Source of the DNA: Clavaria fumosa
Lineage: Eukaryota; Basidiomycota; Agaricomycetes; Agaricales; Clavariaceae
Direction of reading: 5' to 3'
DNA: 64,000 nt
Assembly (NCBI GenBank): GCA_951802425.1
Contig: OX637794.1
Span: 620,001 to 684,000 of the forward strand
The notes under the pieces are model-generated. The model was not told the DNA's origin. It saw nothing but the letters and a program-made list of their open reading frames with translations, and made no database searches. Position 1 is the first letter of the stretch; each line of letters opens with the position of its first letter. Of this stretch, positions 1 to 13,731 are shown in pieces. The translations under genes and the position numbers were made by a program.

Positions 1-128
1 TGGATTCCGTGGTGTGCAAGCTAAAGGTTAGTTCTATTTCTCTGCCTTGTCGCAAATTGCGCAACATTCTCACATATCTAGTCATTGTTCAACTTTCCGG
101 ATGGTCTTTTTCAGATACTCAGGAAGTT
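1..128 (+). other. Possible exon end and long intron leading into the array
   Basis: The first 26 bases are followed by a donor-like GTTAGT at about 27, and the next clear acceptor is TTTTTCAG at about 107-114, just before the first recognisable array unit (acceptor CTCAG, triplet GAA, near 118-125). If the array belongs to a transcript, this would be the last piece of an exon whose gene begins left of the window. Only the splice-like signals are seen; the reading is an inference. Confidence 0.25.
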
Positions 129-3100
129 CCCGATTCGCATAAATGTCCGTGTGCTTGTCTAATGTGTACAAAACCTCATGCTCACTGCGTTGCAACATTT
201 ACTCATCCTCAGGAAGTGGGTGAACTCAGTTCATAGGTTCAGAATCCCAATCTGACAGTGACCCGGTATTGGCCTTCCTTCAGTGGGTGCGCAAACTTGT
301 CCCATACGCGCAGAAACTCGCAATGACTATTCCTTGTATCTGGCCACCCTCAGATTGTGCGCGAACTTGTTCCATAGCTGTAGAAATCCGCTGATGCTGT
401 CCCGACGTTTTCTCGCCTTCAGCAAGTGAGTGAAATCGATTCATAGCTGCAGAAATCCGTGCTGACGCTGTTCCTGCATTTTCTTACCCTCAGAAAGTGC
501 GCGTATGCATTCCATAGCTGCAGAAATCCATGCTGACACTGCCCCTGCATTTTCTTGCCCTCAGGAAGTGCGTGAACTCAATTCATAGCTGCGGAAATCT
601 GTGCTGACGCTGTCCCTGCGTTGTCTTGTCCTCAGCTTGTGAGTGAATTCGTCCCATAGCCGCAGAAATCCGTGCTGACACTGTCCCGGCATTTTCTCGC
701 CCCCAGCGAGTGCTTGAACTCCTTCCATAGCTGCAGAAATCTGTGCTGACACTGTCCTTGTGTTTCCTTGCCATCAGGAAGTGTGTGAACTCACTCCATA
801 GCTGCAGAAATCCGTGCTGATGCTGTTCTGCATTTTCTTGCCCTCAGCTTGTGTGTGAACTCGTTCTGTAGCTGCAGAAATCCATGCTGAAGCCGTCCCT
901 GCATTTTCTCGCCATCAGGAAGTGCGTAACTTGTTCCATAGCCGCAGAAATCCGAGCCAACGCTGTGCATTTTCTTCCCCTCAGCTTGTGGGTGAACTTG
1001 TTCCATGGCTGCAGAAATCCCTGCTGATGCTGTCTCTGTCTTTTCTTACCCTCAGGACGTGCGTGAACTGTTTCCATGGCTGCGGAAATCTGTGCTGATG
1101 CTGTCCCTGCATTTTCTTACCCTCAGCCTGTGCGTGAACTCAATCCTTGATTGTAGAAATCTGTGCTGACACTGTCCCTGCATTTTCTTGCCCTTAGCTT
1201 GTGCGTGAACTTGTTCCATAGCTGCAGAAACCTGTACTTCTATTGTCCATGTGTTGCCTTGCCCTCAGGAAGTGCGTGAATTCGTTCCATAGCTGCAAAA
1301 ATCCGTGCTGATGTGGTCCCTGCATCTTTTCGCCCTTAGCGAGTGCGTGGAATCGTCCCACAGCCGCAGAAATCAGTGCTGACACCGTCTCTGTTTTCTT
1401 GCCCTCAGGAAGTGTGTGAATTCATTCCATAGCTGCAGAAATCCTTGCTGATGCTATCCCTGCATTTTCTTGCCCTCAGCTTGTGCGTGAACTCAACCCA
1501 TTGCTGCAGTAATCGGCGCTGATGCTGTCTCTGTGTTTTCTTGCCGTCAGCTTGTGCGTGAACTCAATCTGTAGCTGCAGAAATTCATGCTGATGCTGTC
1601 TCTGCACTTTCTTGCCCTCAGCTTGTGTGTGAACTTGTTCCATAGCTGCAGAAATCCATGCTGAAGCTGTCCCTGCATTTGTTTGCCCTCAGCCTGTGCG
1701 TGAACTCGTTCCATAGCCACAGAAATCCATGCTGACACTGTCTCTTCGTTTCCATGCTCTCAGTATGTCCGTGAACTCGTTCTATAGCTGCAGAAATCCA
1801 TGCTGACACTGTCCTGGCGTTTTCATGCCCTCAGCGGGTGCGTGAGCTGGTTGCATGGTCACAGAAATCCATGCTGACCTGTCCCGGCGTTTTCATGCCC
1901 TCAGCGGGTGCGTGAGCTGGTTGCATAGTCACAGAGATCCATGCTGATATTGTCCCGGCGTGTTTTCTTGCCCTCAGGCTGTGCGTAAACTTGTTCCATA
2001 GCTACAGAAATCTGTGCTGACACTGTCCTGTGTTTTCTTGCCCTCAGTCTGTGCGCACACTCCTTCCATCACTACAGAAATCTGTGCTGAAGTTGCCCCT
2101 GCATTTTCTTGCCCTTAGCTTGTATGTGAATTTGTTGCATACCTGCAGACATCCGTGCTGACGCTCTTCATGCCCTCAGCGTGTGCGTGGACCTGTTCTT
2201 AAGCTGCAAAAATCCGTGCTGATGCTGTCCCTGCATTTCCTTGCCCTCAGCGAGTGCGTGAACATATTCTATGGCTACAGAAATCCGTGCTGATGCTGTC
2301 CCTGTGTTTTCTTGCCCTCAGGCTGTGCGTAAACTTGTTCCATAGCTACAGAAATCTGTGCTGACACTGTCCTGTGTTTTCTTGCCCTCAGTCTGTGCGC
2401 ACACTCCTTCCATCACTACAGAAATCTGTGCTGAAGTTGCCCCTGCATTTTCTTGCCCTTAGCTTGTATGTGAATTTGTTGCATACCTGCAGACATCCGT
2501 GCTGACGCTCTTCATGCCCTCAGCGTGTGCGTGGACCTGTTCTTAAGCTGCAAAAATCCGTGCTGATGCTGTCCCTGCATTTCCTTGCCCTCAGCGAGTG
2601 CGTGAACATATTCTATGGCTACAGAAATCCGTGCTGATGCTGTCCCTGTGTTTTCTTGCCCTCAGTCTGTGCGTAAACTGCTTCCATAGCTACAGAAATC
2701 TGTGCTGACACTGTCCTGTGTTTTCTTGCCCCAGACCGTGTGTGAACTCATTCCATAGCTAAATCTGTACTGATATCTGTCCCTGCATTTTCTTGCTCTC
2801 AGTCTGTGTGTGAACTCATTCCATAGCTACAGAAATCCATGCTGAAGCTGTCCTGTTTTTTTTATTAACCCTCAGTTGGTGCGTGAACTCATTCTATAGC
2901 TACAGAAATCTGTGCTGATTCCTGTCCCTGCATTTTCTTGCCCTCAGTTGGTGCGTGAACTCATTCTATAGCTACAGAAATCTGTGCTGATTTCTGTTCC
3001 TGCATTTTCTTGCCCTCAGTTTGTGTGTGAGCTCATTCCTTAGCTAAATCTGTGCTGATTCCTGTCCCTGCATTTTCTTGCCCCCAGGATGTGCGTGAAC

Positions 3101-6100
3101 TCATTCCATAGCTACAGAAATCCGTGCTGATTTCTGTTCCTGCATTTTCTTGCCCTCGGTTTGTGTGTGAGCTCATTCCTTAGCTAAATCTGTGCTGATT
3201 CCTGTCCCTGCATTTTCTTGCCCTCAGGCCGTGCGTGAACTCATTCCTTAGCTAAATCTGTGCTGATTCCTGTCCCTGCATTTTCTTGCCCTCAGGTTGT
3301 GTGTGAATTCGTTCCATAGCTCCAGAAATCCGTGCTGATTCCTGTCCCTGCATTTTCTTGCCCTCAGGCTGTGCGTGAACTCATTCCATAGCTACAGAAA
3401 TCCGTGCTGATGCTGTGCTGGTGTCTACCTGCCCTCAGCCTGTGTGTGAACTCATTCCATAGCTACAAAAATCTGTGCTGATTCCTGTCCCTGCATTTTC
3501 TTGCCCTCAGGCTGTGCGTGAATTCATTCCATAGCTCCAGAAATCCGTGCTGATTCCTGTCCCTGCATTTTCTTGCCCTCAGCGAGTGAGTGTACTTCTT
3601 CCATAGCTGCAGAAATCCCTGCTGATGCTGTGCTGGTGTCTACCTGCCCTCAGCCTGTGTGTGAACTCATTCCATAGCTACAGAAATCCGTGCTGATTCC
3701 TGTCCCTGCATTTTCTTGCCCTCAGGCTGTGCGTGAATTCGTTCCATAGCTCCAGAAATCCGTGCTGATTCCTGTCCCTGCATTTTCTTGCCCTCAGCGA
3801 GTGAGTGTACTTCTTCCATAGCTGCAGAAATCCGTGCTGATGCTGTGCTGGTGTCTACCTGCCCTCAGCCTGTGTGTGAACTCATTCCATAGCTACAAAA
3901 ATCTGTGCTGATTCCTGTCCCTGCATTTTCTTGCCCTCAGGCTGTGCGTGAATTCGTTCCATAGCTCCAGAAATCCGTGCTGATTCCTGTCCCTGCATTT
4001 TCTTGCCCTCAGCGAATGAGTGTACTTCTTCCATAGCTGCAGAAATCCCTGCTGATGCTGTGCTGGTGTCTACCTGCCCTCAGCCTGTGTGTGAACTCAT
4101 TCCATAGCTACAGAAATCCGTGCTGATGCTGTGCTGGTGTCTACCTGCCCTCAGCCTGTGTGTGAACTCATTCCATAGCTACAAAAATCTGTGCTGATTC
4201 CTGTCCCTACATTTTCTTGCCCCAGACCGTGCGTGAACTCATTCTATAGCTACAGAAATCCGTGCTGATTCCTGTCCCTGCATTTTCTTGCCCTCAGGCC
4301 GTGTGTGAACTCATTCCTTAGCTAAATCTGTGCTGATTCCTGTCCCTGCATTTTCTTGCCCTCAGGCTGTGCGTGAACTCATTCCATAGCTACAGAAATC
4401 CGTGCTGATTTCTGTTCCTGCATTTTCTTGCCCTCAGTTGGTGCGTGAACTCATTCTATAGCTACAGAAATCTGTGCTGATTTCTGTTCCTGCATTTTCT
4501 TGCCCTCAGGCTGTGCGTGAACTCATTCCATAGCTACAGAAATCCGTGCTGATGCTGTGCTGGTGTCTACCTGCCCTCAGCCTGTGTGTGAACTCATTCC
4601 ATAGCTACAAAAATCTGTGCTGATTTCTGTTCCTGCATTTTCTTGCCCTCAGTTTGTGTGTGAGCTCATTCCTTAGCTAAATCTGTGCTGATTCCTGTCC
4701 CTGCATTTTCTTGCCCCCAGGATGTGCGTGAACTCATTCTATAGCTACAGAAATCCGTGCTGATTCCTGTCCCTGCATTTTCTTGCCCTCAGGCCGTGTG
4801 TGAACTCATTCCTTAGCTAAATCTGTGCTGATTCCTGTCCCTGCATTTTCTTGCCCTCAGGATGTGCGTGAACTCATTCCATAGCTACAGAAATCCGTGC
4901 TGATTTCTGTTCCTGCATTTTCTTGCCCTCAGTTTGTGTGTGAGCTCATTCCTTAGCTAAATCTGTGCTGATTCCTGTCCCTGCATTTTCTTGCACTCAG
5001 GCCGTGTGTGAACTCATTCCTTAGCTAAATCTGTGCCGATTCCTGTCCCTGCATTTTCTTGCCCTCAGGATGTGCGTGAACTCATTCCATAGCTACAGAA
5101 ATCCGTGCTGATTTCTGTTCCTGCATTTTCTTGCCCTCAGTTTGTGTGTGAGCTCATTCCTTAGCTAAATCTGTGCTGATTCCTGTCCCTGCATTTTCTT
5201 GCCCTCAGGATGTGCGTGAACTCATTCTATAGCTACAGAAATCCGTGCTGATTCCTGTCCCTGCATTTTCTTGCACTCAGGCCGTGTGTGAACTCATTCC
5301 TTAGCTAAATCTGTGCTGATTCCTGTCCCTGCATTTTCTTGCCCTCAGGATGTGCGTGAACTCATTCCATAGCTACAGAAATCCGTGCTGATTTCTGTTC
5401 CTGCATTTTCTTGCCCTCAGTTTGTGTGTGAGCTCATTCCTTAGCTAAATCTGTGCTGATTCCTGTCCCTGCATTTTCTTGCCCTCAGGATGTGCGTGAA
5501 CTCATTCCATAGCTACAGAAATCCGTGCTGATTTCTGTTCCTGCATTTTCTTGCCCTCAGTTTGTGTGTGAGCTCATTCCTTAGCTAAATCTGTGCTGAT
5601 TCCTGTCCCTGCATTTTCTTGCACTCAGGCTGTGCGTGAACTCATTCCTTAGCTAAATCTGTGCTGATTCCTGTCCCTGCATTTTCTTGCCCTCAGGCTG
5701 TGTGTGAACTCATTCCATAGCTACAGAAATCCGTGCTGATGCTGTGCTGGTGTCTACCTGCCCTCAGCCTGTGTGTGAACTCATTCCATAGCTACAAAAA
5801 TCTGTGCTGATTCCTGTCCCTACATTTTCTTGCCCCAGACCGTGCGTGAACTCATTCTATAGCTACAGAAATCCGTGCTGATTCCTGTCCCTGCATTTTC
5901 TTGCCCTCAGGCCGTGTGTGAACTCATTCTTTAGCTAAATCTGTGCTGATTCCTGTCCCTACATTTTCTTGCCCCAGACAGTGCGTGAACTCATTCCTTA
6001 GCTAAATCTGTGCTGATTCCTGTCCCTGCATTTTCTTGCCCTCAGGCTGTGCGTGAACTCATTCCTTAGCTAAATCTGTGCTGATTCCTGTCCCTGCATT

Positions 6101-9100
6101 TTCTTGCCCTCAGGCTGTGCGTGAACTCATTCCATAGCTACAGAAATCCGTGCTGATTTCTGTTCCTGCATTTTCTTGCCCTCAGTTGGTGCGTGAACTC
6201 ATTCTATAGCTACAGAAATCTGTGCTGATTTCTGTTCCTGCATTTTCTTGCCCTCAGGCTGTGCGTGAACTCATTCCATAGCTACAGAAATCCGTGCTGA
6301 TTTCTGTTCCTGCATTTTCTTGCCCTCAGTTGGTGCATGAACTCATTCTATAGCTACAGAAATCTGTGCTGATTTCTGTTCCTGCATTTTCTTGCCCTCA
6401 GGCTGTGCGTGAACTCATTCCATAGCTACAGAAATCCGTGCTGATGCTGTGCTGGTGTCTACCTGCCCTCAGCCTGTGTGTGAACTCATTCCATAGCTAC
6501 AAAAATCTGTGCTGATTTCTGTTCCTGCATTTTCTTGCCCTCAGTTTGTGTGTGAGCTCATTCCTTAGCTAAATCTGTGCTGATTCCTGTCCCTGCATTT
6601 TCTTGCACTCAGGCCGTGCGTGAACTCATTCCTTAGCTAAATCTGTGCTGATTCTTGTCCCTGCATTTTCTTGCACTCAGGCCGTGCGTGAACTCATTCC
6701 TTAGCTAAATCTGTGCTGATTCCTGTCCCTACATTTTCTTGCCCCAGACCGTGCGTGAACTCATTCTATAGCTACAGAAATCCGTGCTGATTCCTGTCCC
6801 TGCATTTTCTTGCCCTCAGGCCGTGTGTGAACTCATTCCTTAGCTAAATCTGTGCTGATTCCTGTCCCTACATTTTCTTGCCCCAGACAGTGCGTGAACT
6901 CATTCCTTAGCTAAATCTGTGCTGATATCTGTCCCTGCATTTTCTTGCCCTCAGTCTGTGTGTGAACTCATTCTATAGCTACAGAAATCCGTGCTGATTC
7001 CTGTCCCCACATTTTCTTGCCCTCAGGCCGTGTGTGAACTCATTTCATAGCTGCAGAAATCTGTGCTGAAGCTGTCCTGTTTTTTTTTAACCCTCAGTGG
7101 GTGGGTGAACTCATTCTATAGCTACAAAAATCTGTGCTGATGCTGTCCCTGCATTTTCTTGCCCTCAGGCCGTGCGTGAACTCATTCCATAGCTACAGAA
7201 ATCCGTGCTGATGCTGTGCTGGTGTCTACCTGCCCTCAGCCTGTGTGTGAACTCATTCCATAGCTACAAAAATCTGTGCTGATTTCTGTTCCTGCATTTC
7301 CTTGCCCTCAGTTTGTGCGTGAGCTCATTCTATAGCTGCAGAAATCTGTGCTGACATTGTCCCTGCATTTTCTTGTTCTCAGGTGCGGTGAACTCATTCC
7401 ATAACCGCAGACATCCGTGCTGATACTGTCCCTGCATTTTCTTGTCCTCAGGAAGTGTGTGAACTTGTTCTATGACTGCATGAATCGATGCTCACACACC
7501 ATCCCTGCATTTCCTTGCATTTAGCAAGTGCGTGAAGTTATTCCATAGCTGCGGAAACCTGTCCTGACACTGTCGCGGCGCTTCTCTCCCTCAGGAAGTA
7601 TGTGAACTCGTTTCAAAGCTGCAGAAATCAGTGCTGATGCTGTCCCCACATTTTCTTTCCCTCAGCGAGTGTGTGAACTCATTCCATAGCTGCAGACATC
7701 CGTGCTGATGCTATCCCTTCTTTTTCATGCCCTCAGCGAGTGAGTGTACTTCTTCCATAGCTGCAGAAATCCCTGCTGATGCTGTCCCTGCATTTTCTTG
7801 CCTTTAGCAAGTGTGTGAAGTCATTCCATAGCTGCGGAAATCCGTTCTGACACTGTCCCGGCGCTTCTCTCCCTCAGGAAGTACGTGAACTCGTTTCATA
7901 GCTGAAGAAATCAGTGCTGATGCTGTCCTCACATTTTCTTGCCCTCAGCGAGTGTGTGAACTCATTCCATAGCTGCAGACATCTGTGCTGACACTATCCC
8001 TGCTTTTTCATGCCCTCAGCGAGTGCGTGTACTTGTTCCATAGCTGCAGAAATCCCTGCTGATACTGTCCCTGCATCTTCTTGCCCTCAGCTTGTGTGTG
8101 AATTTGTTCCATAGCTGCACACATCCATGCTGATGCTGTCCCCTGCATTTTCTTGTCCTCAGGAAGTGTGTGAACTTGTTCCATAGCTTTAGATATCCGT
8201 GCTGATGCTGTCCCTGCATTTTCCCGCCCTCAGGAAGTGCGTGAACTTGTTCCATAGCTGCAGAAATCTGTGCTGAAGCTGTCCCTGCATTTTCTTGCTC
8301 TCAGGAAGTGCATGAACTCATTTCATAGCTGCAGAAATCCATGCTGATACTGTCCTTGCATTTTCTTGCCCTCAGCTTGTGTGTGAACTGGTTCCATAGT
8401 TGCGGAAATCCATGCTGACACTGTCCCTGATGTTTTCTTGCACTCAGCGAGTGCGTGAACTTGTTCCATAGCTGCAGAATTCCATACTAATGTTGTCCCC
8501 GTGTTTTCTTGCCTTCAGGAAGTGTGTGAACTTGTTCCATAGCTGCAGAAATCTGTGCTGACACTTTCCCTGCATTTTCTTGCCTTCAGCTTGTGTGTGA
8601 ACTTGTTCTATAGCTGCAGAAATCCGTGCTGATGCTGTCCCTCCGTTTTCTTGCCCTCAGCGAGTGCGTGAATTCGTTCCATAGCTCCAGAAATCCGTGC
8701 TGAAGCTGTCCTGGTTTTTTTAAAACCCTCAGTTAGTGCGTGAACTCATTCCATAGCTGCAGAAATCTGTGCTGATGCTGTCCCTATATTTTCTTGCCCT
8801 CAGCGAGTGCGTGAACTCAATTTATAGCTGCAGTAGTCATCTGTGTTGACTCTATCCCCGCTTTTCCTCCCCCTCAGGAAGTGTGTGAATTAGTCTATAG
8901 CAGCATCAATCCATGCTGACCCTATCCTGGCTTATTCTCACCTTCAGGTTGTGCGTGAGCCTATCCATAGCTTCAGAAATCCGTGTTGATGCTGTCCTCG
9001 TCTTTTTCGCCCTCAGATTGTGCGTGAGCCTGTTCCACAGGCACAGATATCGGTACTGACACTGTCCCGGCGTTTTCTCGCCCTCAGCTTGTGCGCGAAC

Positions 9101-9990
9101 TCATTCCATGGCTGCAGAAATTTATGCTGACTCTTTCCTGGACCTTCTCGCTTTCAGGCAGTGTGTGAACTTGTTCCACTCCCGTAACTTGAGCTGACAA
9201 TCTCCTGGCCTTTTATATGCCTTCAGTTTGTATGTGAACCTATCCTATATCTTTAGAAATTTGTGTTGACATCGCCCTGGCCTTGTCCTGTCTTCAGGAA
9301 GTCCGTAAGCTTGTTCCATAACTGCACGAACTTGTCCTCACTGCATTCCAACTCTTTTCCGCCATCAGTGGGTAGGTGCACTTGTCACATTGATGCAACA
9401 CTTGCAATGACCCTGTCTCGGTTGTTTCCTGCCCTCAGCTTGTGTGTAATCTTGTGCCATAATCTCAGAACCTCGTGCTGACCATCTCCTGGCCTTTACG
9501 ACCTTCAGCGAGTGCGTAGACATGTCCCATAGCCATGGAACCTTTTACTGACCATATCTCGGCCTTTCACTCTGCTTAGAATGTGCGTGACCTTGTCCCA
9601 TAGTTGCAGAAGCTTGTGTTGACCATTCCTGACATTTCCCCCATTCTCAGAGAGTATGTGAACTCCTTTCATAGTCATAAAAACTGACCGCCTCCCTGCC
9701 TTTCCCTAAACCCAGGAAGTTCGTGGACTCAATCCATTGCTGCAGAACCTCACACTGATTGTGTCTCCTCCTTTCAATAATCCCGCTCCCAGTGGGTGTC
9801 TGGGTTTGACCTGAGGACCATGTGAATCATGTCCTGGCTTTCTATTGTTCCAGGCTGTGAGTGAACTTGTCTTATCATGTCAGTAATTTGCACCGTGATA
9901 ACGTGGCCTTTTAACATGGCCTTTTCATGTGCTCAGGAGGTGGTAGATCCTCGCACTTACATTTGCTTTGAATTGTGTTGTTGCACATGA
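100..9990. repeat. Tandem array of ~71-bp intron-like units
   Basis: About 9.9 kb of head-to-tail units, roughly 135-140 copies, mostly 71-72 bp, with a shorter class of about 65 bp that lacks a few bases near ACAGAAA. On the + strand each unit reads GTGCGTGAAC, then TCATTCCATAGCTACAG, AAATCCGTGCTGAT, CCTGTCCCTGCATTTT and CTTGCCCTCAG, followed by 3 variable bases. Units in the middle (about 2.0-7.3 kb) are nearly identical and form higher-order blocks; units towards both edges are older and diverged, the usual picture for unequal crossing-over. Read as RNA, every unit carries a donor, a branch point, a pyrimidine tract and an acceptor in correct order and spacing. Whether it is transcribed or spliced cannot be seen. 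It could be only a minisatellite that grew from an intron. No long ORF crosses it in any frame, and the short minus-strand ORFs inside it are repeat artefacts. Confidence 0.95.
1963..2665. repeat. Direct duplication of a five-unit block inside the array
   Basis: A block of about 344 bp (five units, with variable triplets GCT, TCT, CTT, CGT, CGA in order) at about 1977-2320 is repeated almost base for base at about 2321-2664. This is a recent higher-order duplication and marks where the array changes from older diverged units to the young homogenised core. Confidence 0.85.
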
Positions 9991-10033
9991 GTCTGTCCAG
10001 TGTGCTGTAATCATGTATTCATATTTCCCTTAG

Positions 10034-10060
10034 GGTTATGGCAGGGTTATGTTTAACTGA
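10034..10060 (+). other. Possible terminal exon of the array transcript
   Basis: After the last array-like unit (triplet GAG near 9940) the next acceptor is TTTCCCTTAG ending at 10033. Read in phase 0, the sequence from 10034 gives eight codons and then TGA at 10058-10060. This would close a transcript whose exons are all whole codons. The support is splice-site position and frame only, so chance is quite possible. The rest of 9,990-10,240 shows no gene. Confidence 0.2.
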
Positions 10061-10336
10061 CAAAGCCAGAACCATATTAGTAATGCCTGGTTTACACTAC
10101 CAGTATGTTATGTGGCATTCATTCATGGTGAGCCTGTGTGACAGACTACTTGTCACGCATCACAACCCATTTAGTCACATTTTTTATTACCCAACAAGTT
10201 TGATTGTCTACAGTTTCCTCATGCCAGACTCGAGAAAAAGTGCTCGAAGCACTTAATCTGCTTGGGGTTGCGGACCTACACTCGGGGCTTTGTCACCCAC
10301 CACCGAACCTTGTCCGACACTGTGACGGACCGGCGG

Positions 10337-10343
10337 TATAAGA
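10337..10343 (+). promoter_or_regulatory. TATA box of reductase copy A
   Basis: TATAAGA preceded by CGGCGG, about 74 bp upstream of the ATG at 10417. The same block occurs upstream of copy B, so the promoter was part of the duplication. Confidence 0.55.
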
Positions 10344-10416
10344 GGAGCTTAGTGCTCGTCAATAGCAGAGCATTTCTGGTACACCCGAAGCATTACCTGA
10401 CAACAACCCAAACATA

Positions 10417-11755
10417 ATGCCTGAAATCATCTTTGTACGTCCCATTTGTTGGGTTTCCTAGTGCAACGTATCTATTTTATCGCAGATAACCGGCGCTACT
10501 GGCTTCCTCGGTTCTCACATCGTCGACCAGCTGTTGGCGAAAGGCTACGCCGTCCGAGCGTGCGCTACCTTCTTTTCTCCACTTCTTCCGAACCTGTCGT
10601 CTCATCCGGACTGTTTGTCTCTACCTAGGGCGGCCCGAGGTGCCAAGGCTGAGCACCTGAGGACCTTCTATGCGGATTTAGGAGAGCGCTTCGAGGTCGT
10701 GTCTATCCCTGACATCGCGAAGGACCAATTCCCCGATGCTCTCAAGGGTGTGCATGCCGTCATCCACACCGCGTCTCCCATCCAAGCGAGTAATGCTGAG
10801 GCGGCCTTGACCGTAAGCGCTCTCTCCTTGCATTGATGCCTGCAGAGAAGCTGAACCCAATTTGGCACCGTAGACGGCTATTGAAGGTACCATGAACGTT
10901 ATCCGTCAAGCCGAAACGGCTGGAGTCAAGAGGATCATCTCGACGAGCTCCATGTATGCCGTGTTGAACCCTAGGTATTCCTTTACGGACGAAGGTACGC
11001 AATTATAGGCGGATGCTCCGTATGTCACTCATCTGGTGACGCGCCATCTCATAGACTGGAACCCTGTCACGATGGAAGAGGCACTCAGCGGCAGCGCGCG
11101 TGTGACGTATGCGGCGTCCAAAACGTTCTCCGAGCGCGCCGTCTGGGAGTTCGCCGACGCGCATCCCGACATCGACATCACCACGTGTAAGCCCACTCCC
11201 TCCTCCCAGCCCCCTTCTGACAAACCCGAACGCATACCAGTCTGCCCGCCCTTCCTGTATGGAGCATTCGCCCCCAACTTCGCGGTGCCGACACCCAACC
11301 ACGCCGCGCTCTCCACGAACGTGCTGATCCACCGGCTTCTCAAACCGGACGGCGTCTTCCCGCGCATGGCGGCGCACGCCGACATCCGCGACGTCGCGCG
11401 CGCGCACGTCCTCGCGCTCACGGCGCCACCGACATCCGTTGTCGGCCGCAAGCGCATCCTCTTTTCGTCCCCGCATGCATCGGACTTTGCAGGCGCCGTG
11501 CGCCTCGTGGCGGAGAAACGCCCCGAGCTGAAGGACCGGCTCGTCGACGTCGCCAAGGCGCCGCAGTACCCGCTCCCACGGATTCCCGTCGACTTTGGGC
11601 GCATCGAGGACGTGCTCGGGATGAAGAAGGAAGAGTTTAGGACATGGGAGGAGACGGTGCTTGATACGGTTGATGCTTTGGTCAAGATTGAGGAGGGTTG
11701 GAAGAGTAAAGGATACGAAGTCGAGATTCCGATACGCAATGCTGCGAACTGGTGA
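10417..11755 (+). pseudogene. NAD(P)-dependent ketoreductase-like, copy A, with premature stop
   Basis: An extended short-chain dehydrogenase of the dihydroflavonol-reductase/aldehyde-reductase type. Exons by splice signals: 10417-10434, 10486-10559, 10629-10812, 10874-11186, 11241-11755. The Rossmann motif TGATGFLGSHI, an HTASP motif after the second half of the nucleotide-binding fold, the catalytic Tyr region (VTYAASKT) and the FLYG segment are all present. In exon 4 the codon at 11006-11008 is TAG, at about codon 137, between the nucleotide-binding half and the catalytic Tyr. Copy B has a sense codon there, and copy A is 3 bases longer at that spot. The reading frame stays open on both sides, so the lesion is young. 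It could still make protein if a 15-base stretch containing the stop were removed, but that is too short for an intron. Copy A has retained the intron 4 acceptor that copy B lost. Confidence 0.75.
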
Positions 11756-11929
11756 TGAATAAATGTCGCATCAGACATAATTGGAGGTTCAATGTCCTCG
11801 TAGTCCGCCATCAGCAATCCTGACTGTTTCATCCTGCTAAGCTGCCAAATAAGGCAAGCAAAGCATGACGTTACATAATCCCAAGTGACCACACCCCTTA
11901 GCCGAGCTAACTCTCCCCAAAGGTAACTT

Positions 11930-12085
11930 ATAGCACCGACCCGAGATAGTAGAGCGGAACTGTCTCTTTCTCCCTGGCTTGGGTTGTTGGCTTGCTTGCT
12001 GTCTCATTAGGATGCTTGGTTGTCTCTGTCTGCCCACCTCCCGCGGTTGATGCTACGCGCTGTCGCCATATGACCAGACGATCCT
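11930..12085 (+). repeat. Remnant of ADA3 intron 1 left between the reductase copies
   Basis: From about 11945 the sequence downstream of copy A (TTTCTCCCTGG, TTAGGATGCTTGG, then GCTACGCGCTGTCGCCATA) matches the first part of ADA3 intron 1 at about 14,320-14,452. Up to about 11,940 it matches the region downstream of copy B (13,930). Exon 1 of ADA3, about 380 bp in the intact copy, is missing at the join except for a few bases. So the duplicated unit once reached into ADA3, and this copy then lost exon 1. Confidence 0.8.
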
Positions 12086-12319
12086 CGTCGCAACCGATAA
12101 CCTAACTGAGTAACGCATCATCTCCTGACGCGTCTCCTGTCACAAATATACTCGAAGAGATTGCCTTACTGATGGTCTGGTTGCTCGCTTACTCTCCCCG
12201 AGGCACTATGAATAAGCACAGGCTTTCATCACCGACGAAGCACCCAATCTGCCAGGGGTTGCGGACCTACCACTGGCAAGAACACCGAGCCTTGCCCGAG
12301 TACTTGGATGAACCGGCGG

Positions 12320-12326
12320 TATAAAA
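12320..12326 (+). promoter_or_regulatory. TATA box of reductase copy B
   Basis: TATAAAA in the same CGGCGG context as copy A, about 75 bp upstream of the ATG at 12400. Confidence 0.55.
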
Positions 12327-12399
12327 TGAGCTCAGTGTTCGCCAACCACAAGGCACCTCTAGTGCACTCGAGGCATTACCCAACAACAGCCCAAGCAAC

Positions 12400-13731
12400 A
12401 TGCCTGAAATCGTTTTTGTACGTCCCATTTATCGAGTTTCATAATGCTACGTATCAAATATTTTATTGCAGGTAACCGGCGCTACTGGCTTCCTTGGGTC
12501 TCACATCGTCGACCAGCTGTTGGCGAAAGGCTACGCCGTCCGAGCGTGCGCTACCTTCTTTTCTCCACTTCTGCCGAAGCTGTCGTCTCATACCGTGCTA
12601 CCTAGGGCGGCTCGTGGTGCCAAGGCTGAGCACCTGAGGACCTTCTATGCGGACCTAGGGAAGCGCTTCGAGGTCGTGTCTATCTCTGACATCGCGAAGG
12701 ACCAGTTCCCCGACGCTCTCGAGGGTGTACATGCCGTCATCCACACCGCGTCTCCCATTGATGCGAGTAATGCCGAGGAGGCCTTGACCGTAAGCGCTCT
12801 CTCCTTGCGTAGATCCCTACGGCGAAGCTAACTTCACTTTGGCACCGTAGACAGCTATTGAAGGCACTATGAATGTTATCCTTCAAGCCGAAAAGGCTGG
12901 TGTAAAGAAGATCATCTCGACAAGCTCCATGTACGCCGTGTTGAACCCCAGGAACTCCTTTACGGACGAGGGTGCGCAATTAGAGTATGCCCCGTTTGTC
13001 ACTCATCTGGTGACGCGCCATCTCACAGACTGGAATCCCGTCACGATGGAAGAGGCACTCAGCGGCAACGCGGATGTGACGTATGCGGCGTCTAAGACAC
13101 TCTCCGAGCGCGCCGTCTGGGAGTTCGCCGACGCGCATCCCGACATCGACATCACCACGTGTAAGCCCTGTTATCCCCCACTCCCCTCCTCCCAGCCCCC
13201 TTCTGACAAACCCGAACGCGTCCGCCCTTCCTGTATGGAGCATTCGCCCCCAACTTCGCGGTGCCGACACCCAACCACGCCGCGCTCTCCACGAATGTGC
13301 TGATCCACCGGCTTCTCACACCGGACGGCGTCTTCCCGCGCATGGCGGTGCACGCCGACATCCGCGACGCCGCGCGCGCGCACGTCCTCGCGCTCACGGC
13401 GCCACCGACATCCGTCGTCGGCCGCAAGCGCATCCTCCTTTCGTCCCCGCATGCATCGGACTTTGCAGGCGCCGTGCGCCTGGTGGCGGAGAAACGCCCC
13501 GAGCTGAAGGACCGGCTCGTCGACGTCGCCAAGGCGCCGCAGTACCCGCTCTCACGGATTCCCGTCGACTTTGGGCGCATCGAGGACGTGCTCGGGATGA
13601 AGAAGGAAGAGTTTAGGACATGGGAGGAGACGGTGCTTGATACGGTTGATGCTTTGGTCAAGATTGAGGAGGGTTGGAAGAGTAAAGGATACGAAGTCGA
13701 GATTCCAATATGCAATGCTGCGAACTGGTGA
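12400..13731 (+). CDS. NAD(P)-dependent ketoreductase-like, copy B, altered splice site
   Basis: Same family as copy A, and offset from it by 1,983 bp. Exons: 12400-12417, 12472-12545, 12606-12789, 12851-13160, then 13241-13731. VTGATGFLGSHI binds the dinucleotide; the TYAAS-K pair and the HTASP motif follow. Compared with copy A, about 10 bases are missing around 13,220, and these held the AG acceptor of intron 4. The first acceptor that keeps frame is the AG at 13239-13240. Using it gives 358 residues but drops about nine residues, including the conserved PPFLYG stretch near the substrate pocket. Expression is likely from the duplicated TATA promoter; the substrate is unknown. Activity is doubtful, and the gene may be on its way to being a pseudogene. 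Confidence 0.7.

Follow-up and report, generated by a model that had tools for sequence, protein, structure and literature searches.

Arrays of candidate single-codon exons in a NACHT NLR gene and in unrelated genes of the agaricomycete Clavaria fumosa

Results

The array and its gene

We analysed a 64,000-nt stretch of the Clavaria fumosa genome (the window, C1:620001-684000; genome 48.8 Mb, 17 contigs). It opens with the end of a NACHT-coding exon, an ordinary exon and a long array of intron units, each followed by a triplet (Table 1). Judged by its sequence, the array makes up the 3′ portion of a gene whose upstream exon encodes a NACHT NLR, a probable immune receptor. Upstream of the window, on the strand of the array, runs an open frame with NACHT/NPHP3_N domains: two Pfam models of NACHT-type NTPases, PF24883 (2.6e-28) and PF05729 (3.6e-11), match above their cut-offs, and the NACHT part has no relatives among PDB sequences at E 0.001. 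The NACHT exon, exon 2 and the array are all joined in phase 0, and the array occupies the place where the C-terminal repeats of an NLR would stand. Between positions 1 and 10461 neither strand has a stop-to-stop ORF that reaches 100 aa.

Table 1. Features of the window NLR gene and its array (window coordinates).
Feature	Position	Strand	Basis or remark
End of NACHT-coding exon (...VCKLK)	1..26	+	Open frame, Pfam NACHT/NPHP3_N; remainder precedes the window (L009 from 8398)
Ordinary intron 1, phase 0	27..114	+	GTTAGT...TTTCAG; comparison with paralogues
Exon 2, 30 nt, ILRKFPIRIN, phase 0	115..144	+	Donor placed by eye; paralogues ILRKLPIRIH
Array of intron units, one triplet after each	210..9856	+	135 candidate single-codon exons
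First candidate single-codon exon, GAA	213-215	+	
Last candidate single-codon exon, GCT	9854-9856	+	
Broken unit	3085..3227	+	Inner acceptor is CGG
Broken unit	3938..4083	+	Inner donor is AT
Broken unit	7309..7451	+	Triplet after inner CAG not intact
3′ end units alignable with paralogues	9155..9795	+	Triplets A-F-E-W-L-R-N-R-E-W
Possible last exon, GAG...TGA	9937..9990	+	By eye; A and B read differently, C unalignable

A preliminary description of this DNA had reported a repeated order of donor, branch-point-like motif, pyrimidine tract, CAG and exactly three bases, and this layout was confirmed. Chaining gave 137 junctions from 120 to 9934. The first of them, at 120, falls within the ordinary 30-nt exon and is spurious, which leaves 136 plus-strand junctions of the form YAG-NNN-GT (210 to 9934). 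Of 136 intervals, 118 measure 68-72 nt; the spurious junction opens one of the 136. Acceptors are CAG in 130 and TAG in 7 of the 137, and the donors include GTGCGT (62/137) and GTGTGT (44/137). Of the 136 intervals, 116 contain a strict CTRAY motif 8-60 nt upstream of their 3′ end; the other 20 have CTGAA (8), TTGAC or TTGAT (3) or weaker motifs. Donor, branch motif and acceptor are thus ordered at the distances of fungal spliceosomal introns, and they are under constraint. Unit length varies, yet the length of the triplet is retained in 136 of 139 units. Shuffling, which had been proposed as a check on a chance origin, spoke for the layout: it appeared in full in 6 of 20000 sequences obtained by dinucleotide shuffling of a single 71-nt consensus unit, and an 18-base junction pattern had 64 matches in the window against a mean of 0.02 in shuffles. 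If retained in phase 0, 114 of 133 window introns would introduce a stop.

In all arrays, triplets ending in CA (e.g. at window positions 5975, 6884 and 9155) create, as NCA followed by GTGCGTG, a second CAG-NNN-GTG four bases on, so that a shifted splice choice would also yield a 3-nt exon. Several near-copies of one gene lie on both sides of the NLR gene (window 10462-13731; L009 ~4924-6206, minus strand). We took it for an NAD-dependent epimerase/reductase by its start, TGATGFLGSHIVDQLL; a single piece run against Pfam had no match.

Paralogues of the window gene

Similarity searches of the genome identified three further arrays of the same layout (A, B and C) on contig C2, with 51, 72 and 89 chain members, respectively, each count including the junction before a possible last exon or next unit. 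The window aligns with these paralogues over ~1.98 kb, up to the first array units, at 73.6-74.0% identity. Past the first ~120 columns, the coding part has five gaps, of 9, 6, 15, 3 and 24 columns, each of them divisible by three; nearer the beginning of the alignment, within those 120 columns, gap lengths do not follow this rule. In the NACHT part, dN/dS is 0.31-0.34 between the window and A, B or C, and 0.44-0.57 among A, B and C. An N-terminal ORF of the window gene found no match when compared with the 5′ flanks of the three paralogues.

Both ends of the triplet series are kept between paralogues, as EWI and A..WL..R.W. The series begins GAA TGG ATT in the window, A and B and GAG TGG ATT in C, and ends A-S-S-W-L-[RL]-[SR]-R-K-W in the three paralogues, in which AAG is the acceptor before the first TGG. 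The window unit at 9851, which the splice-site count given below does not cover, has an acceptor that is not retained in A and B. At synonymous sites of the NACHT part the three paralogues differ by ~7.7%, yet only short blocks are common to their inner codon strings. The joined codon strings are low in complexity, and none of the four from NLR genes has any Pfam match at E 0.01, be it to a C-terminal repeat domain (WD40, ANK, TPR) or to another family.

We scored 85 NACHT loci in the genome. On contig C5 (~2.15-3.02 Mb) such loci form a dense row, often ~10 kb apart; one NLR there (L019) is followed by 11.8 copies of a 126-bp repeat, WD40-like by eye, which are not single-codon exons. No array follows within 5.6 kb of a partial NACHT sequence on C10, which aligns over 234 of 505 residues at 59%. 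Contig C8 carries two near-identical orphan fragments of window-type units, about one and a half units each (L017 ~4195-4305, minus; L018 ~4937-5047, plus), within CT-rich low-complexity DNA and with similar surroundings in opposite orientation. Six bases (AGGGAA) take the place of the triplet in them, and we rejected them as arrays, there being none around either. A further match resembling them lies at C2:2164728.

Arrays in unrelated genes

Scanning the genome with a gapped junction pattern starting with GTGCGT gave 90 plus and 159 minus matches, and none for the pattern read backwards. The four NLR arrays supply all 90 plus and 64 of the minus matches, and nearly all others belong to a further array, D, on C10. 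The survey covered this donor type, and the seven array genes described here are a lower bound.

Array D has 133 chain members, the first being the end of an ordinary exon (...FFQKF), which is joined to the array in phase 0. Its triplets are TTC (61), AGA (31), GAA (26), GAG (8) and seven others, hence limited almost wholly to Phe, Arg and Glu codons; long, near-exact copies of several units occur in it (L022/L023), and three units have AT as donor. The exons before D encode a Tle1-like catalytic domain (PF09994, above its cut-off) and a HEAT-like match (below its cut-off), and they appear to form one gene with the array.

A third family consists of two genes on C2, E and F. Both show a TATA-like stretch and a short leader, followed by CAG-ATG-GT, CAG-GCA-GT, CAG-GAG-GT, CAG-ATA-GT and so on; from their sequence they seem to start with the ATG as an exon of three bases. 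MAE and 61 (E) or 76 (F) further triplets run in frame into ordinary phase-0 exons that are coiled-coil-like, reading VKQDLQIEEKCKGLEQKL in E and differing by one residue in F. The flanks, including the array ends, are 94-96% identical between E and F, and the inner codons differ. Their post-array exons (L024 ~2080-2390 and L026), 33 to 63 nt in length, look like near-copies of one another (A.Y..DM..), as if larger exon-intron units had also been duplicated.

Queried with one piece each of D and E, the genome gave no copies other than D, E and F. The unit sequences of D and of E/F are unrelated to those of the NLR arrays, and the layout with a 3-nt triplet is common to all.

Stop codons and splice-site constraint

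The 617 triplets of the seven arrays contain no stop in phase 0. For the four NLR arrays, 19.6 stops were expected from positional base use and none was found in 348 triplets; T is the first base in 0 of 160 triplets where a stop would result and in 60 of 188 elsewhere, although many triplets are copies of one another and these larger counts are not independent. Counting distinct triplets per array, the figures are 0/26 and 15/53 (P 0.0016). The other two frames of the joined NLR triplets hold 3 and 36 stops. Frame 1 is also stop-free in the window array, B and D, with 3 stops in A and C and 1 each in E and F, so the absence of stops singles out phase 0 only in some arrays.

Splice sites were compared in the 12-13 homologous end units, the window units being chosen for intact GT and AG and the paralogue units not. 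Between the window and B, GT/AG changed at 0 of 50 positions, against 134 of 592 other intron positions; changes were found at 6/36 triplet positions, at 7/46 donor positions +3 to +6 and at 6/40 positions of the branch 5-mer. GT/AG likewise changed at 0 of 50 positions between the window and A and between the window and C.

Variability of the triplets

To compare the triplet with the rest of the unit, we used a held-out control in which pairs of units were picked without the tested stretch and end units were left out. The triplet was the most variable of 64-66 three-base stretches in all seven arrays. Its variability, 0.26-0.52 per site, was 4.5-20 times the mean of the other stretches (0.015-0.095), exceeding the most variable of them only 1.2-2.6 fold. 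Over all pairs, the triplet ranked first in six of seven arrays, and two stretches of B exceeded it. Earlier ratios of triplet to intron variability (6-12; 6.4-10.4; 203 in D; 12.7 and 9.6) were discarded in favour of this control; they were too high because their pairs had been selected for similar introns.

Close pairs with different triplets differed by an amino-acid change in 78 cases and synonymously in 3, across the six arrays that were classified, D not among them (changing/synonymous: window 15/2, B 9/0, A 11/0, C 18/1, E 9/0, F 16/0). This pattern fits diversifying selection and is not proof of it: constrained introns, or introns homogenised while codons persist, would yield part of it.

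Discussion

Alternative explanations

In our estimate there is a probability of roughly 0.85 that the arrays are chains of single-codon exons building a variable protein segment, C-terminal in the NACHT NLR gene. Chain splicing was one of three fates offered by the preliminary description, and the one-codon-exon reading behind it is well supported in the sequence by phase 0 on the 5′ side (in E and F on both sides), the absence of stops, the constraint on splice dinucleotides, the paralogues and the unrelated arrays. Its other two suggestions, removal of the whole array as one giant intron or by recursive splicing, would both keep the triplets out of the mature mRNA, and we regard them as unlikely. 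A full skip would be in frame too, as the array ends in phase 0, and single units are weak or broken, but triplets destined for removal are a poorer fit to the avoidance of stops, to the retention of the end triplets between paralogues and to a triplet that is the most variable position, with mostly amino-acid-changing differences. In E and F, moreover, the ATG is itself such a triplet.

Even less probable is a minisatellite of intron origin, evolving free of selection and passing on its layout by duplication alone. Unit duplication is plain, the longest exact repeats measuring 362 nt (window array) and 404 nt (array B); against this stand the GT and AG, kept while other intron positions differ by 23%, the constant triplet length in units of varying length, the avoidance of stops and the recurrence of one layout in unrelated unit sequences. 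We give next to no credence to the idea that the 69-nt units of A, B and C are themselves translated, as a protein repeat of 23 residues. These three arrays do have one frame that stays open for as long as 702, 201 and 567 residues, respectively, but the variants in that frame (27/61/2, 17/40/1 and 34/68/3 synonymous/changing/stop) match the expectation under no selection (26.4/62.4/1.2, 17.0/40.2/0.8 and 30.9/72.8/1.4) and show no trend with codon position, and the window array, in which most units are 71-72 nt long, contains 144 stops or more in every plus frame. This reading was therefore rejected. A structured RNA or snoRNA array was also rejected: window positions 1-10500 gave no match to Rfam at the gathering score, and four units folded at z of -1.68, -0.67, -0.54 and 0.45.

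A chain of one-codon exons and its consequences

We infer that a transcript is made and spliced as a codon chain. Each unit would be a spliceosomal intron of ~65-69 nt plus one codon, and splicing would join the codons in phase 0 into a segment of up to ~135 residues, predicted in the window gene to begin with EWI and to end with the conserved A..WL..R.W stretch. Since every exon is one codon, the frame survives whenever whole units are gained, lost, duplicated or skipped; near-identical introns could therefore recombine and alter the protein codon by codon. Skipping of units may add further protein variants, and skipping of broken units would likewise preserve the frame. By analogy with other fungal NLRs, the codon segment may serve recognition.

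We lean towards single-codon exon arrays being a general mode of protein building in this fungus, in which recombination and alternative splicing would both work with the codon as their unit, always in frame, as at least three families carry them and two of the genes seem to use them from the ATG on. If transcripts bear out the chain splicing, a product can be varied by single amino acids, through copying, loss or skipping of introns, at no risk of frameshift, and intron repeats would be linked directly to the diversity of immune receptors. More than 100 consecutive 3-nt exons would also test the limits of splicing, and gene prediction at such loci would overlook whole segments of protein.

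Comparison with known systems

Truffles are ascomycetes and the host of the present arrays is an agaricomycete, so we think that this fungus is a separate case from the truffle. In keeping with this placement, the genome has five matches to DUF6534, a basidiomycete family, four of which exceed the cut-off, and 14 control genomes gave none; its many NACHT loci also suggest an agaricomycete. In the accessible parts of four papers, NACHT-ANK genes of Tuber melanosporum are described as containing codon-sized (3-bp) exons, in the tens or dozens, that are alternatively spliced, with Iotti et al. 2012 as the source cited for these exons (PMC3689799, PMC4986451, PMC10197012, PMC9815663); the statement in the preliminary description that no such array had been described was wrong. 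As far as those parts go, the likeness extends to a NACHT NLR, many 3-bp exons, their C-terminal position and a proposed diversification of the recognition part; tens of such candidate exons follow the NACHT part in the window, A, B and C, as genomic layout only. The systems differ in that the NLR triplets here do not encode a recognizable ankyrin domain (no Pfam match at E 0.01), and in that the layout here is shared by a Tle1-like gene and by two small genes that seem to begin with the ATG as a one-codon exon. What appears new relative to the truffle is this spread to non-NLR genes and the start codon as a single-codon exon: among the matches listed, the literature search gave no such arrays in non-NLR genes and no one-codon ATG exon, which is weak evidence, subscription papers being mostly outside the search.

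Schistosome micro-exon genes have very small exons, many of them in a row, and we know of no micro-exon system with tandem near-identical introns carrying one codon each. An isolated 1-nt exon is described for Fusarium CYP621A in the part of the source available (PMC12940212). Very small exons are what both have in common with the arrays here.

Fungal NLRs, according to the available parts of two papers, carry highly similar WD40, ANK or TPR repeats that are reshuffled by recombination (PMC4986451, PMC9815663). As described there, they resemble the arrays in having, after the NACHT domain, tandem DNA repeats with a few hypervariable positions. In those NLRs the repeat is coding, whereas in the present arrays it is the intron that repeats, with a single codon as the variable part.
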